64,000 bases of DNA from a bacterium (GTDB lineage Bacteria; Verrucomicrobiota; Kiritimatiellia; CAIKKV01; CAITUY01), in the NCBI GenBank assembly GCA_037143175.1, contig JBAWZF010000001.1, positions 170,199-234,198 of the forward strand. The letters are read 5' to 3'. A program made the position numbers and the translations under genes. How positions within the stretch are numbered: the first letter of the stretch is position 1; each line of letters starts with the position of its first letter. Below are positions 10,581 to 18,029 of the stretch, piece after piece. The notes beneath the pieces were generated by a model, which searched no databases, was not told the origin of the DNA, and saw only the letters and a list, made by a program, of their open reading frames with translations.

Positions 10581-12256
10581 AAAAGCAAGAAACGAACGCA
10601 ATGCCTCTTCCAAAAGACGTGCTGATTGTCGAAGACAGTGCCACCCAGGCCGCCGTGCTCAAGAGCGCTTTGGAAGGGCACGGCTGGTGCGTCCGCGTCG
10701 CCCGCGATGGCGTCATGGCGCTGGAAATGGCCCGCCTCAGCAAGCCGGATATCGTGGTCAGCGACATTCGTATGCCGAAAATGGACGGTTACGCCCTCTC
10801 AAAAGCGATCAAGACCGACCCGGCCCTGCATGATGTGCCGGTGGTGCTGTTCACTTCGCTGTCACAGTCGAGCGATATCGTTCACGCCATCAACAGCCGG
10901 GCTGACTACTATTTCCTGAAGCAGTGGGATCATGACGATCTGATTGCCAAAATCGCATCCGTTCTGGATACGTACCAACCGTTGTCCGACCATGGCCAGG
11001 ACGGACTCACTGTGCGTTTCGAGGGGAAAGCCTACACGATCGAGGCCAATGCTCATCAGCCACTGAGCCTTCTGCTATCCACCTACGAGATTGCGGTTCA
11101 GCAATCCCTGAAGCTTGCGGCTGCCCGGGACAAATTACGGGAAGCCAGCGAATTCGCCGAGAGCGTCATCAACACCGTGCGTGAACCCCTGATTTCTTTG
11201 GATCAAGACCTCAGGGTGGTCGCCGTCAACCGCTCCTTCTGTGCATTCTTCAAGGTAAAACCCGAAGAGACGGTGGGACAGCTTGTCTATGATCTGGGAA
11301 ATGGCCAGTGGAATATTCCCAAACTGCGGGAACTGCTGGAAACCATCCTTCCGCAAAAGACAACCTTCGATAACTATGAGGTGGAACACGATTTTTCCAC
11401 CATTGGCCGGCGCATCATGCTTCTGAATGCCCGGCAAATTCAAAGAGGGTTTGGCAAGGAACGGATCATCCTTCTGGCTATCGAGGATATTACCGAGCGT
11501 AAGGAGATAGAAGCCGGCTTGGAAAACGCCCATGAAGAGTTAAGTCGAGCTGCTCGGGCAAAAACGGAATTCCTGGCCAATATGTCGCATGAGCTCAGGA
11601 CACCGCTTAACTCCATTAACGGTTTCTCTGAGGTATTATACGACGAGACGTTCGGACCGCTTAATGAGAAGCAGAAAAAATACGTTACCAATGTTCTAGT
11701 CAGCGGAAAGCACCTTATCTTACTGATTAATCAGATACTTGATATGGCAAAAGTTGAGTCCGGAAAGATGACGCTGGCTTTATCCAGCTTACCCCTGAAA
11801 AGCCTGTTACATGAGATGGCGCTGCTGGTAGCGGATGTGGTCGGCAAGAAGAAACTGCAGATGGTGCTCGAAATAGCCGAAGATCTGCCGTCAATTGACG
11901 CGGATGAGCTCAAGGTGAAACAGATCATTTACAACCTGCTTTCGAACGCAGTTAAGTTTTCAGCCGATGGTGGCACCATTGGCATGCAGGCAAGGAAAGC
12001 TGATTCAGAGATAGAAATAGTGGTTTGGGACAAGGGGATCGGTATCGCACCTGAAAACATGGAGAAAATATTCGAAGGTTTTTTCCGTGTCAATACCCCC
12101 TATTCCCGGGTAACTGAGGGGACCGGACTGGGTTTGCCGCTCTCTAGAAAACTGGTTGAGCTGCATGGCGGGAAGCTTGCTGCAGAATCAGAGGGGCTGA
12201 ATAAAGGCACCTCGGTCCGATTTACTCTGCCTATTGTAGCCCGGAAGGAACCCTGA
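10577..12256 (+). CDS. REC-PAS hybrid sensor histidine kinase, last gene of the chemosensory operon
   Basis: This 559-residue protein has a receiver (13-130, VLIVEDSAT, phosphoacceptor Asp63 in VVSDIRMPKMDGYAL), a PAS domain (about 190-310) and a HisKA domain with His338 in NMSHELRTPLNSI. A HATPase follows (N box IIYNLLSNAVKFS, G1 WDKGIGI, G2 GTGLGLPLSRKL). In Wsp operons the output is a REC-GGDEF diguanylate cyclase. Here a REC-fed kinase takes that slot, so the signal probably passes from CheA to this receiver and on by phosphorelay. The convergent minus-strand genes (12886-15728) hold receivers and DHp-like domains without ATPase and are natural partners (inference). Copy B of the dispersed repeat begins 17 bases after the stop. 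Confidence 0.92.
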   Translation: MKKQETNAMPLPKDVLIVEDSATQAAVLKSALEGHGWCVRVARDGVMALEMARLSKPDIVVSDIRMPKMDGYALSKAIKTDPALHDVPVVLFTSLSQSSDIVHAINSRADYYFLKQWDHDDLIAKIASVLDTYQPLSDHGQDGLTVRFEGKAYTIEANAHQPLSLLLSTYEIAVQQSLKLAAARDKLREASEFAESVINTVREPLISLDQDLRVVAVNRSFCAFFKVKPEETVGQLVYDLGNGQWNIPKLRELLETILPQKTTFDNYEVEHDFSTIGRRIMLLNARQIQRGFGKERIILLAIEDITERKEIEAGLENAHEELSRAARAKTEFLANMSHELRTPLNSINGFSEVLYDETFGPLNEKQKKYVTNVLVSGKHLILLINQILDMAKVESGKMTLALSSLPLKSLLHEMALLVADVVGKKKLQMVLEIAEDLPSIDADELKVKQIIYNLLSNAVKFSADGGTIGMQARKADSEIEIVVWDKGIGIAPENMEKIFEGFFRVNTPYSRVTEGTGLGLPLSRKLVELHGGKLAAESEGLNKGTSVRFTLPIVARKEP

Positions 12257-12273
12257 GATCTGGAGGCTGCTTT

Positions 12274-12291
12274 CTATGGGGTGTAACCCTA
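12274..12291 (+). repeat. Dispersed 18-bp repeat, copy B
   Basis: Exact consensus CTATGGGGTGTAACCCTA, 17 bases after the kinase stop codon. It lies between the kinase gene and the 3' end of the minus-strand gene at 12319. Confidence 0.75.
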
Positions 12292-12318
12292 TCGATTATT
12301 CCTCGTGTTTGCGCGGAC

Positions 12319-12768
12319 TCAAAGGTCGTCGTGTGTCAGATCTATGAAGAAGAATCCAGCCAACAGGTCAAATATTTCCAATGGCTCGACCCCGACATCA
12401 ATCCCGACGACGAGAGCTTGAATGCCCACGCCGATTTCCGCAGGGCCGTAATCCGGATCAACCCCTCCGGACACCGTGGCATCGACGACACTGGCTTGAA
12501 CGCCGTTTCGGCTCTCAAACCCAATCGGGAGCTTAGGAAAGGGGCGGTTGCGTGGCCCGGGCAAACCAGCATATACAGAGGCGTACGACCCCACGAAAGC
12601 AGAAGCCATTTTTGTCGCCCGTACATCCACCGCTAATCCCGATCCCACGCGAACACGGAGCCGGACAATGTCGAAGACATCCAGTACGCGGTTGGGTATA
12701 TACATGACAATCTTGTGCAATACGCCGTGGGATTCGGTGGTCTTGGCCGCTTGCTCTTCCGCTGCCAC
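12319..12768 (-). CDS. Conserved hypothetical protein, 5' end apparently replaced by repeat DNA
   Basis: The frame encodes about 149 residues from GTG 12768 and ends at 12319. It has alternating hydrophobic, glycine-rich beta-like segments (VRVGSGLAVDVRATK, GSYASVYAGLPGP, DPDYGPAEIGVGI, ALVVGIDVGVEPLEI), which suggest an exported or outer-membrane-associated protein. I cannot name the family. The in-frame sequence just upstream of the GTG reads TPCFGVAAEEQA, which looks like the tail of a signal peptide. The hydrophobic core that should precede it is replaced by copy C of the dispersed repeat. It therefore looks like a 5'-truncated gene, with repeat copies on both sides. The start codon given is only the first possible one. 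Confidence 0.5.
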   Translation of the reverse strand: MAAEEQAAKTTESHGVLHKIVMYIPNRVLDVFDIVRLRVRVGSGLAVDVRATKMASAFVGSYASVYAGLPGPRNRPFPKLPIGFESRNGVQASVVDATVSGGVDPDYGPAEIGVGIQALVVGIDVGVEPLEIFDLLAGFFFIDLTHDDL

Positions 12769-12799
12769 TCCAAAGCACGGGGTACTTATAACCCGTGGG

Positions 12800-12814
12800 A
12801 AGGGGTTAACCCTA
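12800..12814. repeat. Dispersed repeat, copy C (shortened)
   Basis: AAGGGGTTAACCCTA, a near-palindromic, shortened member of the CTATGGGGTGTAACCCTA family; it fits in either orientation. It sits where the signal peptide of the gene at 12319-12768 should be encoded. Confidence 0.55.
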
Positions 12815-12885
12815 CTCGAATCAGGCGAGCATCGTCCCTCGGCAACCCTCTTTTCAACATAAGGGCCGAATGTATGAACGGGTTT

Positions 12886-14514
12886 TCAACGGGCAGTGAG
12901 GAGTTCCCTATCCGGTGCCAGGCCTTTTGGCACTCCTACAATCACGATCAGCCTATCCAGAAGCTGTTTTGCGCTCGCGCCACTCTCTTCCGCCATTTGA
13001 AACATTTCTTTTTGCTGTTCATTGACCTGGCCAAGATAGCCAGCGGCCGCCATTTGGATCACGCCACTCATCACAGTAATAGGCTGACACAACTCCTGAA
13101 GGATTTCGGCAAGGATTACCAGGAGGGCCGCCAGGGTCTGTTTGCGTTTAGTCCGTTCCGGCTCTTCCGGCTCTTCCAGGTCTTCCGATGCTTCGATATA
13201 GTCCTGAATCTGTTTGCCAAGATTCTCGATTTTCTTCCCGGTTTTGCTCGCAAGGGTCCCGGAAACCTTATTCACCTGCGACACAACATCAGTGATCGCA
13301 GTTGGATCCGACTTGCCGGCACTGACCATTTCATCCAATTTCGTGAGAAGGGCGATAATCTCACTCACACCGCCGGGGGCGGAGACCTCCGCAGCCTTCA
13401 TCAGGAGCGTCCGCCAATCGCTGGACGATATCCCTTCCGCAGAGAGCTGCTTACCCAGGCCGCGTTCAACTGCTTGTTCTTCGCCCATAGCCTTGATCTG
13501 CTGCACGAGATCTTTCTCGGCCCTGGCAAACGAAGCGTATTTCTTCGCGTACTCGGATGCGATGGCCTTGATTTCAACTTCCCCCAGCATTTCATTGATG
13601 GCCGTTGAGATCGCGATCTCCGTACCGGGCGCGGCAGGAGGTTCGAGCCCCTTCACGCTGCGCAGGATATCCTTCCCCAGCAACAGCAGGTTTTTCTTCA
13701 AGGCGGTTTTCCGTTTTGCACTCGCAATCGGCTTCTCCTTCAGCAGAGCGTGACGAACCCGGTTGAGACGCGCGACAACAATGTCAGCCAGAGATTCCGG
13801 CTCACCAGATGGCGTCATTTTCCTGGGTTGTACCACCGCCATCTCCATGATGAATCGGGCAAGTCGCTCGGGGTCCGAAAGCAACATGGTTGCCAGATCT
13901 TTGGACGCCTGCTCACCGTCGACAAGGCCATCGCTCTTCAGAAACGCCATAATCTGCTCAACGACGCCTTTCTTGCCTTCCTCGGCTTTCGCATCTTCAA
14001 TGAGACTTTCCGGGGCTTTCTCAGCGTTCTTGAGAACAACCTCCTCATGTTCAGTAACCGTGCGATACGTCACTGTCAATGCGGAGATGTGCTCGACGCC
14101 ATGCTCCGCCAAGGCCTGTCGCATACCCTCACCTTCAGAATCCGCAACCGGCACGCCTGTGAACATGATCTCGATCAGTTTGCCATACTCTTCCCGCGTC
14201 AGACCCTTTAACATGGCAAGTCCGGCTAGTTCAACGTCGGTTAACCGTTTGGCAAGGACATTGATGAAGGATTCGGTCGTTCCCGCCGGCTCGCCCTCGA
14301 CAAGCAGCACACCGTCAGCCATATCAAAGTTGATGCGCTCACAAATCTCCAGTATCGGCGCCAGTAAATTGTAAGACTTGTCAATAGATTCAATGGTGAG
14401 TTTATGATGCGGACCATACATGTCGCTGTTTGCGAAAATCCTCCCCATCAGCCGCAACAACTCTCTGCTGGCGGCCACCGGGCGGTTTGATCCTGTTGAG
14501 TTATCCACGTTCAA
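12886..14514 (-). CDS. Large protein with C-terminal DHp-like (HisKA-like) helices and no ATPase domain
   Basis: This 542-residue protein has no signal peptide or membrane helix. The N-terminal 130 residues (ASRELLRLMGRIFANSDMYG, LLVEGEPAG, KRLTDVELAGLAML, LTREEYGKLI) resemble a domain seen at the front of some HD-type signalling proteins. The middle (about 150-440) is charged, Lys/Glu-rich and helical. The last 80 residues (LAEILQELCQPITVMSGVIQ, GQVNEQQKEMFQM) align by eye to a HisKA dimerisation helix pair, but the His of the H box is replaced (ELCQP where kinases have ELRQP or HELRTP). No HATPase follows. It ends a minus-strand set with two receivers and a DHp-only protein, so a docking or scaffold role in a phosphorelay is a reasonable guess. 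Confidence 0.6.
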   Translation of the reverse strand: MNVDNSTGSNRPVAASRELLRLMGRIFANSDMYGPHHKLTIESIDKSYNLLAPILEICERINFDMADGVLLVEGEPAGTTESFINVLAKRLTDVELAGLAMLKGLTREEYGKLIEIMFTGVPVADSEGEGMRQALAEHGVEHISALTVTYRTVTEHEEVVLKNAEKAPESLIEDAKAEEGKKGVVEQIMAFLKSDGLVDGEQASKDLATMLLSDPERLARFIMEMAVVQPRKMTPSGEPESLADIVVARLNRVRHALLKEKPIASAKRKTALKKNLLLLGKDILRSVKGLEPPAAPGTEIAISTAINEMLGEVEIKAIASEYAKKYASFARAEKDLVQQIKAMGEEQAVERGLGKQLSAEGISSSDWRTLLMKAAEVSAPGGVSEIIALLTKLDEMVSAGKSDPTAITDVVSQVNKVSGTLASKTGKKIENLGKQIQDYIEASEDLEEPEEPERTKRKQTLAALLVILAEILQELCQPITVMSGVIQMAAAGYLGQVNEQQKEMFQMAEESGASAKQLLDRLIVIVGVPKGLAPDRELLTAR

Positions 14515-14519
14515 GTTCC

Positions 14520-14978
14520 TTAAATTTCTTTACCTGCCACCCAGGCGATGATCTCTTTTACTAGAGCTTTCTCGTTTTCATCCGGAATAGCGGGAGGTTG
14601 TTTCAATGCCTGTTTTATCTTTTCCAGGAGGGTGTCTACCACGAAGGGCTTGATAAGAAACGGGTAATTCAACGCCTGGAGAGAATCCTTGACCTTTCTC
14701 TCCTGCTCAGGCCCGACCTCATCAAACCCGGTTATGAAAAGGACGGGAATTCGACTGGTGCGCAATGATGTCCTCAAGTTCTCATAGACTTTAAACCCTC
14801 CGCCACCGGGAAGCCTGATGTCCAGAATAATGAGATGGGGTCTTTTCTCCTGCGCTATGGACACAGCCGTCATCGCGTCATAGGCCGTCGACACTTCATA
14901 GTTGTTGGCCATCAAACGAGTACTTAACAGGTACACAAAATCAACATCGTCATCCACAATTAGAATTCGCTGTGACAT
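14520..14978 (-). CDS. Single-domain response regulator
   Basis: From ATG 14978 (preceded by GGAAAGGAGAACTCCTC) the protein is 152 residues and is a stand-alone receiver. It has acidic residues in LIVDDDVDF (7-15), phosphoacceptor Asp53 (IILDIRLPGGGGF), a Thr in LFITGF and Lys110 (FLIKPF). A 30-residue helical tail follows. It has no DNA-binding or enzymatic output. The start lies inside the upstream receiver gene (29-base overlap), so the two are translationally coupled. Single-domain receivers commonly shuttle phosphate or bind a target protein, here perhaps the 542-residue protein whose gene starts 5 bases downstream. Confidence 0.88.
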   Translation of the reverse strand: MSQRILIVDDDVDFVYLLSTRLMANNYEVSTAYDAMTAVSIAQEKRPHLIILDIRLPGGGGFKVYENLRTSLRTSRIPVLFITGFDEVGPEQERKVKDSLQALNYPFLIKPFVVDTLLEKIKQALKQPPAIPDENEKALVKEIIAWVAGKEI

Positions 14979-15369
14979 GAGGAGTTCTCCTTTCCAACAG
15001 ACTTCCAATTCCTTCCAGAAGAGATCCCGGATCGCACGGTTTGGCCATGTATCCTTCGGCACCGCACTCTGCAGCCTGATCCTTGTCGACCTGCCGACTG
15101 TTGGCTGACATCACAATGATGGGAATCTCACGAATGGACACTTCCGACTTCAACCTTCGACACACAGCACATCCATCCAGATCCGGCAACCCCATATCGA
15201 GCAGGATCAACGCGGGCTTCTCCCGTAGTGCAAGTTTGATGGCGGTCTCCCCATTGCTGGCCGTGACCACCTCGTAGCCGTTGCTCCGCAACCGCGCTCC
15301 CACCAGAAGCAGCAGATCGTCATTATCATCAACCATAAGAATTTTTGCGACTGGTTGCCCCTTTTTCAT
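14950..15369 (-). CDS. Single-domain response regulator
   Basis: This 139-residue receiver has LMVDDNDDLL (acidic pair 14-15), phosphoacceptor Asp58 (LILLDMGLPDLDG), a switch Ser in IIVMSANS and Lys110 (GYMAKPCDPG). A short tail with no output domain follows. It overlaps the DHp-only gene upstream by 4 bases and the next receiver gene by 29 bases. Two adjacent stand-alone receivers with one DHp-only partner suggest a branched relay. The partner kinase with ATP-binding capacity is not in this operon. Confidence 0.9.
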   Translation of the reverse strand: MKKGQPVAKILMVDDNDDLLLLVGARLRSNGYEVVTASNGETAIKLALREKPALILLDMGLPDLDGCAVCRRLKSEVSIREIPIIVMSANSRQVDKDQAAECGAEGYMAKPCDPGSLLEGIGSLLERRTPHVTANSNCG

Positions 15370-15728
15370 ACAGACCTTCCCCCGTCCAGTTTCCTGTCGG
15401 GCTGCTGATTCACTTGATCAAAAGTTTTGCCGAATTCGATCTTACCGGACCCGACCCGTGACATGTCCACCAGTTCGCTGATAAGATTCCCCATCCGCAT
15501 GCAATTTCTATGGGCGATCTCAAGAATTTTTTTCTGCTCCACTCCAATCTCACCATGAAGCCCGTCGACCACCTGGGCCACCGCTTCAGTAATATTGCTG
15601 AGGGGTGTGCGTAGTTCATGGGTGGCAAAGGACACAAACTCCGTTTTCATCCTATTGACCTCACTCATGACACAGGCTTTCCCCGCATGTCGCTTCGTAT
15701 TTTTCGATGATTTTGCCATCTTGTTCAT
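15366..15728 (-). CDS. DHp-only (HisKA) protein, truncated or stand-alone phosphotransfer module
   Basis: The 120-residue product contains a full HisKA dimerisation domain (about 24-95). Its H box is FATHELRTPLSNITEA, with His37, and the second helix is KILEIAHRNCMRMGNLISEL followed by VDMSRVGSGKIEF. It ends shortly after the second helix. No HATPase is encoded before the stop or in the overlapping genes, and the N-terminal input domain is also absent. It may be the remains of a larger kinase or a real phosphotransfer protein; its 4-base overlap with the next receiver gene suggests it is still translated. Upstream lies AT-rich DNA and then repeat copy D. Confidence 0.72.
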   Translation of the reverse strand: MNKMAKSSKNTKRHAGKACVMSEVNRMKTEFVSFATHELRTPLSNITEAVAQVVDGLHGEIGVEQKKILEIAHRNCMRMGNLISELVDMSRVGSGKIEFGKTFDQVNQQPDRKLDGGRSV

Positions 15729-15820
15729 GTCACTTTACATAAAATTATCAAAATATTGTCACAGCTTTGTTCTTAAAATCATCCTTGGACTGATATTACG
15801 TAATGAAATGCCGTCTGGGC

Positions 15821-15837
15821 AATGGGGTCTAACCCTG
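15821..15837 (+). repeat. Dispersed repeat, copy D
   Basis: AATGGGGTCTAACCCTG, a divergent copy of CTATGGGGTGTAACCCTA, in direct orientation. GGGGTCTAACCC-type palindromes are common next to REP-associated Y1 transposases in other bacteria (from memory); no such transposase is present here. Confidence 0.6.
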
Positions 15838-16129
15838 CCGCATCAAAACATGGCCTTGGAAAAATTTATAAAAGCCATTCCTACATCCATACCCATATCC
15901 AGCCGAGATCGCCATCTCGACTGAAAAGGAACGGACATCTGCGTAGTACGCTCGCCCCACCTGTCCTTTGGAGCATCCAGCCCCGTGGGCGGCTCAACAG
16001 TAGTCCATGCTCCTTTACCGCACGTGGGCGGAGCGTATTCGGCGGCCGCGGCTCATCCCCGATGCGATCATTCTCGCCATCTACGGCTATCACTTTTGCA
16101 GAACCTGCGAAAAGCATGTGGTGCAGCAG

Positions 16130-16147
16130 TAGGGTTACACCCCATAG
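16130..16147 (-). repeat. Dispersed 18-bp repeat, copy E
   Basis: TAGGGTTACACCCCATAG, the exact reverse complement of the consensus seen at copy B. It is oriented opposite to copy D, 292 bases away from it. Confidence 0.75.
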
Positions 16148-16229
16148 CAAAGGTGCGTCCCGCCGCGTAACGTCATGATTGAAAGTATGGGAACTGGTGA
16201 GTTCCCTAGGAATTGAAAGGAATCGACCA

Positions 16230-16337
16230 ATGAATCTTCTATTTTCGCCAGTTTTGGCCAACATCTATTACATCGGCGGTGGCGGACTCGGCCTTGTTGT
16301 CGTCATCGTTCTCGTGGTGCTAATGCTTCGTCGTTAA
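16230..16337 (+). CDS. Very small membrane protein, DUF3309-like C-terminal half
   Basis: ATG 16230 follows TGAAAGGAATCGACCA, a good ribosome site. The product is 35 residues: MNLLFSPVLANIYYIGGGGL, then a single hydrophobic helix ending LRR. The GGGLGLVVVIVLVVL part matches the end of the intact DUF3309-type protein encoded at 16951 (GGLGLVVLILVILLLL). It may be a shortened paralogue. Its role is unknown; the small-protein run downstream suggests an envelope or stress setting. Confidence 0.55.
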   Translation: MNLLFSPVLANIYYIGGGGLGLVVVIVLVVLMLRR

Positions 16338-16373
16338 CAGAAAGAGACACAAACAATGAGAAAGGAACATGCA

Positions 16374-16931
16374 ATGAAAAAGGTTGTTGTTTTGATGGGC
16401 GTTGCGCTGGTTACGGTGGGAGCCATGGCAGGGCCCAAGCCCCTGCAACTCAGCCTTACTCCAGGCATCGCCATCCATGACCGGACCGAGAAGATCGAGG
16501 GCTTCACACTGGGAATATGGAGCGAGAACCCGCAAGCCGCGTTCGCCTTGGGGATTGTGAACGGGTCAACGGGTGATAGCGCTGGCTTGAGTGTGGGTAT
16601 CCTGAATTACGCAGATAGCTACAGAGGCCTTCAATGGGGACTGGTCAACTATACGAAGGGCGACACCCTCGGCTGGCAAGGTGGTTTCTGTCTTGGCCTT
16701 GTGGGCAGTGTGGTGAACTACACCGGCGGCACCATGAAGGGGTTCCAGTGCGGTGTGGTGAACTATGCTGGGAGTTTGACCGGGTTACAACTCGGAATCG
16801 TCAACTATGCGGCGACGGCGGCTAGCGGCTTGCAAATCGGGGTGGTTAATATTATGCCCTAGAACGAGTGGTTCACCGAGTTGCCCGACGCGTTAGCGCC
16901 TGGGATGGTTCTCGTCAACTGGAGATTCTAA
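16374..16931 (+). pseudogene. Secreted repeat protein (GLQxGxVNYA type, LA_2272-like) with an in-frame amber stop
   Basis: From ATG 16374 (AAAGGA 8 bases upstream) there is a signal peptide (MKKVVVLMGVALVTVGAMAG). Glycine-rich repeats follow: GLSVGILNYA, GLQWGLVNYT, GFQCGVVNYA, GLQLGIVNYA, GLQIGVVNI. This pattern resembles predicted surface proteins of the LA_2272 repeat type. A TAG at 16860-16862 stops translation at 162 residues. Reading past it in the same frame gives NEWFTELPDALAPGMVLVNW then RF and TAA at 16929-16931, which looks like the natural family terminus. The stop is thus a single-codon lesion (or a sequencing error); the truncated product may still be made. An in-frame ATG at 16356 is an alternative start. 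Confidence 0.65.
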
Positions 16932-16950
16932 ATATGAAGGGAGCAACAGC

Positions 16951-17109
16951 ATGAGCATTGGAACGTTACTACTGGTTGTCCTGATTCTCTTTCTCGTGGG
17001 CGCATTGCCCGCCTGGCCCCACAGCAAGAACTGGGGTTACTATCCAAGCGGTGGGCTCGGCCTCGTGGTTCTGATCCTGGTCATATTGCTTCTTTTGGGT
17101 CGAATTTGA
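16951..17109 (+). CDS. DUF3309 family small membrane protein
   Basis: This 52-residue protein reads MSIGTLLLVVLILFLVGALP, then AWPHSKNWGYYPSGGLGLVV and a second hydrophobic helix ending LLLLGRI. The two helices separated by a W-PHS-WGY-PSGGLG linker are the hallmark of DUF3309. The ribosome site AAGGGAGCAACAGC precedes ATG 16951. The function is unknown; members are often found near stress and envelope genes. It lies between the damaged repeat protein and a small lipoprotein, all on one strand. Confidence 0.85.
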   Translation: MSIGTLLLVVLILFLVGALPAWPHSKNWGYYPSGGLGLVVLILVILLLLGRI

Positions 17110-17188
17110 AGGACGAACACGACGAACCGCTGGCTTGGGTAAACAAATTGCGGTCAAGGATCGCCAAGATTACGGATGAGGAGGACTT

Positions 17189-17305
17189 ATGAATACGGGA
17201 AAATGCCTGCGCGTGATAATGATGCTGTTGGTTTTGGTCTCAGCCTGCCTGCTGCTTTCGGGATGTGTGATTTTTGGCGGCGACCACTTTCTGTGGTTCG
17301 GCTAG
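17189..17305 (+). CDS. Very small lipoprotein
   Basis: ATG 17189 is preceded by GATGAGGAGGACTT. The 38-residue product has a signal peptide with a lipobox (LLVLVSACLLLSGC), so the mature peptide would be only about 14 residues beginning CVIFGGDH. Small entericidin-like lipoproteins have this build, but I cannot assign a family. It is part of the small-protein run 16230-17577. Confidence 0.6.
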   Translation: MNTGKCLRVIMMLLVLVSACLLLSGCVIFGGDHFLWFG

Positions 17306-17388
17306 TGTTACATCCGATAGCCAAAGACTGGTAAGCATCGGGGAGATATAGGGTCGAGACAACTTTCGTACAATAGGGAATCGGCATC

Positions 17389-17577
17389 ATGAAGGGATTA
17401 ACAAAGGTTTTAAAGGGGCGCATCGAGGAGGCAGCGGGGGCGCTGACCGGCAACGACAAGCTGCGCGCCAAGGGCCAGACGGATCAGTCTGTCGGCCATA
17501 TCAAGCAAGCCGCCGAAAAGGTCATCGGGCAGTTCGAGAAGTCAGTCGGGAAGATTCTGGATAAAGCGGTAAAATAG
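17389..17577 (+). CDS. CsbD-family stress protein
   Basis: This 62-residue hydrophilic protein starts MKGLTKVLKGRIEEAAGALT and continues GNDKLRAKGQTDQSVGHIKQ. The pattern of K-G-x-x-E-E-A-A-G-x-L-T-x-x-x-K-L-x-A-x-G followed by a helix of small and charged residues is typical of CsbD, a small protein induced by general stress in many bacteria. Its molecular role is unknown. It closes the small-protein run. Confidence 0.85.
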   Translation: MKGLTKVLKGRIEEAAGALTGNDKLRAKGQTDQSVGHIKQAAEKVIGQFEKSVGKILDKAVK

Positions 17578-17702
17578 CGCGCGGAGTGAAGAGGATATTC
17601 CCCATAAAACCCAGGCCATTTGACGGCGTTGATCCGGTGGTTGCGTTTACGGGTAACCTCTGCCCATGCCGTGACATTAGCACCTTCAAGGGTTCATGAA
17701 AA

Positions 17703-17722
17703 CCGTGATATCTCAATCACGG
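17703..17722. other. Perfect 7-bp inverted repeat
   Basis: CCGTGAT-ATCTCA-ATCACGG lies in the 211-base gap between csbD and the disrupted HTH gene. It has no T-run on either strand, so an operator-like site is as likely as a terminator. Confidence 0.3.
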
Positions 17723-17788
17723 ATGTCCTGATTAAAACACGTGACACTTGTCCCGCTTATTCAACGTCACCGAATGTACCCGATCAAG

Positions 17789-18029
17789 TTACACCACAGG
17801 TCGATCAACATCTTCCTCCGAAGTAATGTTGGCAATATCCGCCATCCGGAATCGGGTGGATCGGTGCCCGAGTTTGATCCGTGTAAGTTTCCCGATTCTT
17901 GCCAGGCGCCAGACCGTGCGCGTGCTGGTGCACAGGATCACCTCGCAGTACTATCAGCGCTTTTTCTTGTAAGTCCGGTGGGGCCGTAAACACAGCCTCG
18001 ATCAGTTTCTTGACCACATCATTATCCAT
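17789..18029 (-). pseudogene. Disrupted excisionase-type HTH protein
   Basis: ATG 18029 starts MDNDVVKKLIEAVFTAPPDL followed by QEKALIVLRG, a common N-terminal helix of small HTH proteins. The frame then degenerates. In the +1-shifted frame from about 17940 the sequence reads STRTVWRLARIGKLTRIKLG and HRSTRFRMADIANI, ending TAA at 17789. This is a classic excisionase (MerR-like winged) HTH with its recognition helix and wing. The halves are out of phase and some sequence between them may be missing. Such HTH proteins accompany mobile elements. Confidence 0.65.

Follow-up and report, generated by a model that had tools for sequence, protein, structure and literature searches.

The lasting interest of the four two-component genes described here is the F542 family, and the kinase-free layout in which we found it derives from an ordinary cassette. 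What is new, as far as the sequences tell, is F542 itself (the 542-aa protein), which joins an unmatched N-terminal domain (NTD) to a C-terminal DHp without its phospho-His (pseudo-DHp). The genes are located on the minus strand of the window (the whole stretch of 64,000 nucleotides that was analysed), which comes from a 3.3 Mb assembly of 107 contigs, a genome of Kiritimatiellia type (Verrucomicrobiota).

Content and layout of the four-gene set

The ORF list confirmed four minus-strand ORFs (Table 1), encoding a DHp-only protein, two stand-alone receivers (REC1 and REC2) and F542. A sequence-only reading of this DNA had described them as a DHp protein with an intact phospho-His, two complete receivers and a 542-residue protein ending in a His-less DHp, none of them with a HATPase, and the HMM searches agree with it on all these points: the DHp-only protein has a HisKA match above the Pfam cut-off with the phospho-His in THELRTPL, both receivers have the acidic pair, the phospho-Asp, the Thr/Ser and the Lys, Gln occupies the His position in F542, and a HATPase is found by Pfam in none of the four proteins. 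No Hpt domain (PF01627) was found in the four proteins either; in this Pfam scan it occurs only in CheA.

It is likely that the four genes form one transcription unit, as they overlap or nearly abut: the DHp-only gene and REC1 share an ATGA, the overlap between REC1 and REC2 is 29 bases long, and 5-11 bases separate REC2 from the F542 gene. Promoter and terminator scans gave no signal above chance level. The start codon of the DHp-only gene is weakly placed, in a region without homology. For REC2 the ATG start (152 aa), with a GGAGA Shine-Dalgarno sequence upstream, is the most likely one (an alternative GTG would give 180 aa and begin within REC1), and for F542, which has 542 aa when read from a TTG, the GTG at 14508 is better placed behind AAGGA and is more likely the true start.

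The genes facing the set, a CheA-REC gene, a CheB gene and a REC-PAS-kinase gene, were assigned by Pfam as they had been in the sequence-only reading. A second CheA-like HATPase/REC region is located on the same contig ∼40 kb upstream of the window (G000:C1:129670-132332).

Table 1. Features of the four-gene set, the genes facing it, and tandem-REC copies found beside F542 relatives (window positions, unless a locus is named)
Feature	Position	Strand	Properties
DHp-only protein	15366..15728	-	120 aa, or 100 aa from ATG at 15668; HisKA E 1.2e-11
Phospho-His37 codon, DHp-only gene	15618-15620	-
REC1, stand-alone receiver	14950..15369	-	139 aa; Response_reg E 1e-24; key Asp/Lys residues intact
REC2, stand-alone receiver	14520..14978	-	152 aa; Response_reg E 3e-18; key residues intact
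F542	12886..14514	-	N-terminal domain and helical middle, ending in a His-less DHp
NTD of F542	14029..14472	-	Residues about 15-162; alpha/beta model, confident
MID region of F542	13180..13968	-	Residues 183-445; all-helical by prediction; nearly invariant Trp367
Pseudo-DHp of F542	12925..13152	-	Residues 455-530; Gln473 replaces phospho-His; invariant Gln477; HisKA E 1.1e-4
Gln473 codon, F542 gene	13096-13098	-
Gln477 codon, F542 gene	13084-13086	-
CheA-REC	7144	+	Faces the set
CheB	9420	+	Faces the set
REC-PAS-HK	10577	+	Faces the set
Tandem-REC, L045	6574-7353
Tandem-REC, L046	5040-5825
Tandem-REC, L047	1300-2160
Tandem-REC, L050	4638-5429
Tandem-REC, L051	4928-5872
Tandem-REC, L053	4903-5715
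Tandem-REC, L063	4808-5599

A related cluster with an intact hybrid kinase

A distant Kiritimatiellae genome (G185, locus L048; Kiritimatiellae bacterium GH19, L108) has a single run of genes with a homologue of each part, in the order REC2 (REC169), F542, a 751-aa hybrid kinase and REC1 (REC126), and all four window proteins have their best counterparts in this run. REC1 is 56% identical to REC126 (a stand-alone receiver directly behind the kinase), REC2 is 55-57% identical to REC169 (which precedes F542), and the two F542 proteins, 36-38% identical to each other, pair as sisters, with an SH-aLRT support of 98, in a tree of 56 rows. The ATGA overlap ahead of REC1 is kept in both clusters. Two distant lineages thus share the content of the four-part set, but of its order they share only the pairs kinase-REC1 and REC2-F542, which have changed places. 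In no further genome was a close homologue of REC2 found next to F542, among 346 genomes of the class and 368 sampled from the phylum. The F542 gene of G185 is split over two frames at a run of G (L048:8526-8560), by a sequencing error or a real frameshift.

The kinase of this run has the architecture REC-PAS-DHp-HATPase-x-REC, where x is an unassigned region and the PAS domain was placed by reading the stretch that separates REC from DHp, without a profile hit. The DHp of this kinase shares 64% identity with residues 23-106 of the DHp-only protein, and the homology between the two proteins is confined to that domain; among 288 class genomes this is the best match, the second being 44% identical. 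A C-terminal HATPase_c is absent from the DHp-only protein, and REC1 comes directly after. Because the related cluster has the same DHp inside an intact kinase, the DHp-only protein is, by homology, a trimmed ordinary hybrid kinase. HisKA hybrid kinases with a single-domain receiver (in L048 and L175-L180) are the direct source of this DHp and of REC1; compared with them, the window version lacks REC-PAS in front of the DHp and HATPase-REC behind it.

The remainder of the 751-aa kinase is absent from positions 12000-18000 of the window (tblastn), where its only matches are cross-matches with the receivers and the facing kinase. In the genome no orphan CA domain closely resembles the missing one, the best match (42%) being the facing kinase. 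We also considered and rejected a kinase split in two, with the CA domain relocated in the genome, as the genome search gave no matching CA domain.

These results divide the earlier proposal of an undescribed split relay. There is a real set, probably co-transcribed, without a CA domain and with the undescribed F542 family in it; the absence of the kinase as a matter of design finds no support, as G185 carries an intact hybrid kinase. That proposal had named truncation of an ordinary kinase and loss of the four-gene order as findings that would tell against it: the first is what the DHp match to L048 indicates, and of the order the two swapped pairs are kept. To us it appears very unlikely that the set is a split phosphorelay built for the purpose and supplied with phosphate by the facing REC-PAS-kinase or CheA-REC. 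The genes are adjacent and convergent, and the CA domain of the facing kinase is the nearest in the genome to the missing one, but at 42% versus 41% for the next; the nearest relative, moreover, has its own kinase, and no such partner is found in any F542 neighbourhood examined. No chemotaxis genes were found near the G185 cluster, the only related one, so that a phosphate feed from the facing genes, and any coupling to them, lacks comparative support.

Trimming of the kinase coincides with domain borders, and the reduced gene has an open frame, without stops or frameshifts, and an intact H-box. Conservation is higher than in the other three parts, with the 64% identity given above and the lowest divergence at second codon positions (0.14, as compared with 0.22 for REC2, 0.25 for REC1 and 0.34 for F542), and it retains the ATGA coupling to REC1. 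These features argue against a decaying kinase remnant, functionless or not yet lost, with REC1, REC2 and F542 served by other kinases. Such decay would agree with the loss of both flanks of what is demonstrably a trimmed kinase, with a weakly placed start codon, with the last 14 residues (behind the DHp), which match nothing, and with the finding of a DHp-only gene beside F542 in one MAG only, such a form being next to F542 in no other of the 346 class genomes searched. On balance we consider decay unlikely and favour, not strongly, a functional protein.

Among the DHp matches listed, a DHp frame shorter than 200 aa is found only in the window and in G261, where a kinase (L184:700-2280) has one in-frame stop between DHp and HATPase and a receiver gene is located downstream; the DHp-only frame at that locus is probably accidental. 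The trimmed form in the window, found in no second genome and in an assembly of many contigs, could also be an artefact, the other parts of the kinase having been lost through a misjoin in the MAG. We give this only a slight chance: the N- and C-terminal parts are both missing exactly at domain borders, a double loss that a single misjoin would not explain, the ORF has its own start and stop and is coupled to REC1, and there is no stray fitting kinase fragment in the genome.

The F542 family and its pseudo-phosphosite

F542 relatives are found in 109 out of 288 class genomes, and a profile without the DHp part adds relatives from a few further families in the phylum. The named relatives that an F542 profile finds are Kiritimatiellae, Lentisphaerae and Verrucomicrobia MAGs and Pontiellaceae; none was found in viral contigs or plasmids. 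F542 makes up a phylum-level, undescribed family.

The pseudo-DHp is recognised by a sub-threshold HisKA match over residues 468-522; all of 23 aligned members have a HisKA match and none of the 23 has a HATPase Pfam match, the protein ending after the DHp. Its top PDB sequence match is an HK853-type DHp, in an alignment that spans the phospho site. Across 56 aligned members this site is occupied by Gln (51 proteins), Leu (four proteins) or Glu (one protein), and never by His; Gln477, four residues further on, is invariant (56 out of 56), and Glu474 is found in 52. Residues 468-482 are the most conserved stretch of F542 (2.97 bits, versus a protein mean of 1.49). As the His is absent family-wide, Gln477 is invariant and local conservation is high, the alignment indicates that the phospho-His was lost early in the family and that the site is still strongly constrained, which fits a docking surface.

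The same residues could make F542 a dedicated receiver phosphatase, in which the motif Glu474-x-x-Gln477 works without a His: Gln477 is at the phosphatase-residue position of HisKA proteins (T/N), and an acid together with an amide is used by CheX (ExxN) and by CheZ and NarX (DxxxQ) (PMC3510030). The spacing is, however, unlike that of DxxxQ, the Glu is missing in some members, and a change of N to Q at exactly this position abolishes the phosphatase activity of CrdS (PMC3510030); DivL, the best-studied His-less DHp, is no phosphatase either (PMC4211667). We regard this function as improbable, and a DivL-like, receiver-docking pseudokinase as the most likely one by analogy.

The NTD has a confident model (pLDDT 90, pTM 0.82), for which Foldseek found no counterpart in the PDB (best E-value 2.3); it belongs to no Pfam family and has no convincing match in profile searches, and it is thus a domain without an identified fold relative. 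The full-length model of F542 is weak (pTM 0.39), and Foldseek searches with it gave unspecific helical matches only, none with E <= 0.001. The NTD is not restricted to F542: in five genomes (loci L148, L149, L191, L192 and L193) it heads complete DHp-HATPase kinases with an adjacent single REC, and it also occurs in PAS-like proteins without DHp and in a short NTD-pseudo-DHp protein.

Of 58 distinct F542 loci, 14 have a co-oriented REC or kinase gene no more than 400 bases away, and the other 44 have no adjoining receiver or kinase gene. The sequence-only reading had proposed a neighbourhood search for F542 with single-domain receivers; apart from the window, a close REC2-F542 pair was found only in G185 among the class and phylum genomes searched. 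Linkage is clustered on the F542 tree (five changes, versus 12 in shuffles); close relatives of the window F542 are mostly alone, and those from other families stand alone. All other kinases adjoining F542 have a HATPase. The commonest linked form is a run of F542, a DHp-HATPase-REC kinase, a tandem-REC protein and nrdR.

Runs with nrdR are found in Lentisphaerae-type genomes (L045, L046, L047, L050, L051, L053, L063 and L133, with the tandem-REC protein in the first seven) and connect a pseudo-DHp signalling set with the ribonucleotide reductase repressor. In all copies of the tandem-REC protein that were examined, a Lys (once an Asn) replaces the phospho-Asp of the second receiver, which places a pseudo-receiver beside a pseudo-DHp in these runs. 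REC1 resembles the first receiver of the tandem-REC protein (31-37%) and REC2 resembles the protein weakly; as the REC2 match is weak and the second tandem receiver lacks the phospho-Asp, the tandem-REC protein is not a simple fusion of REC1 and REC2.

Other neighbours were observed. For example, a second F542 copy of the source genome (L039:64-7385, contig C79) is located behind NuoEF/HydA-type hydrogenase-like genes, and a PtsP-like gene follows F542 in relatives of the genus (L055 and L070). The neighbours of stand-alone F542 genes are specific to the lineage, with glycogen synthase-like and/or acetolactate synthase genes in one clade and transketolase in another (L058, L062, L065, L073, L074; L057, L075, L077).

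Possible working and relation to known systems

We tentatively favour, from the sequences and by analogy, the reading that the cassette is a remodelled two-component set, made of a trimmed DHp phosphotransferase/phosphatase and a DivL-like F542. The ancestral Kiritimatiellia form would have been that of G185 (REC2, F542, hybrid kinase, REC1), and in the lineage of the window the kinase would have lost all that lay before and behind its DHp, so that the phosphate-carrying helices remain, coupled to REC1. From what is known of these protein families we infer that the DHp-only protein forms a four-helix bundle as a dimer, and that it may serve REC1 and REC2 as a phosphotransferase of the Spo0B/ChpT kind and/or as a phosphatase, with phosphate supplied by a kinase encoded elsewhere. 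The pseudo-DHp of F542 would be unable to carry phosphate and would offer its conserved pseudo-site as a docking surface for receivers; F542 might thereby read the phosphorylation state of a receiver and relay it to its NTD/MID part, much as DivL does. As 44 out of 58 F542 loci have no neighbouring partner, such reading would often occur in trans, or F542 would be otherwise employed.

DivL of Caulobacter has Tyr in place of the His, binds DivK~P, has no kinase or phosphatase activity and can dispense with its CA domain (PMC4211667). F542 is like DivL in the family-wide replacement of the phospho-His in a DHp fold, in the conserved surface round the pseudo-site and in its genetic linkage with a hybrid kinase and with a receiver; it differs in having Gln rather than Tyr, in having no CA domain, in belonging to another phylum and in an unrelated N-terminal domain, as opposed to the PAS repeats of DivL, and no homology is seen beyond the DHp. 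It is possible, with our judgement leaning somewhat against it, that F542 is a family of DHp proteins which lack both CA and His and read the phosphorylation of receivers, DivL-like but separately evolved, whose partner kinase in the window has been naturally reduced to a bare DHp. To our knowledge there are few cases of His-less DHp proteins, with DivL as the model.

The DHp-only protein can be compared with Spo0B and with ChpT, a non-kinase DHp phosphotransferase (PMC3433190). Its sequence has the features of a DHp-type hairpin with a phospho-His, as these non-kinase proteins do, and it may have a similar relay activity; unlike them it has no CA-like C-terminal domain, and its origin can be traced to a hybrid kinase of the same cassette.

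The isolated DHp of EnvZ (domain A) acts in trans, and it can be phosphorylated and is capable of phosphatase activity. Domain A is a laboratory construct, whereas here the gene itself encodes a bare DHp, and the trimmed kinase may be regarded as a natural counterpart of such constructs. If F542 is as we read it, the family would be an independent, CA-free test case for the DHp as a pure receiver-reading module, with a reach of over a third of the sampled class genomes, recurrent links to receivers and hybrid kinases, and NrdR at eight loci.
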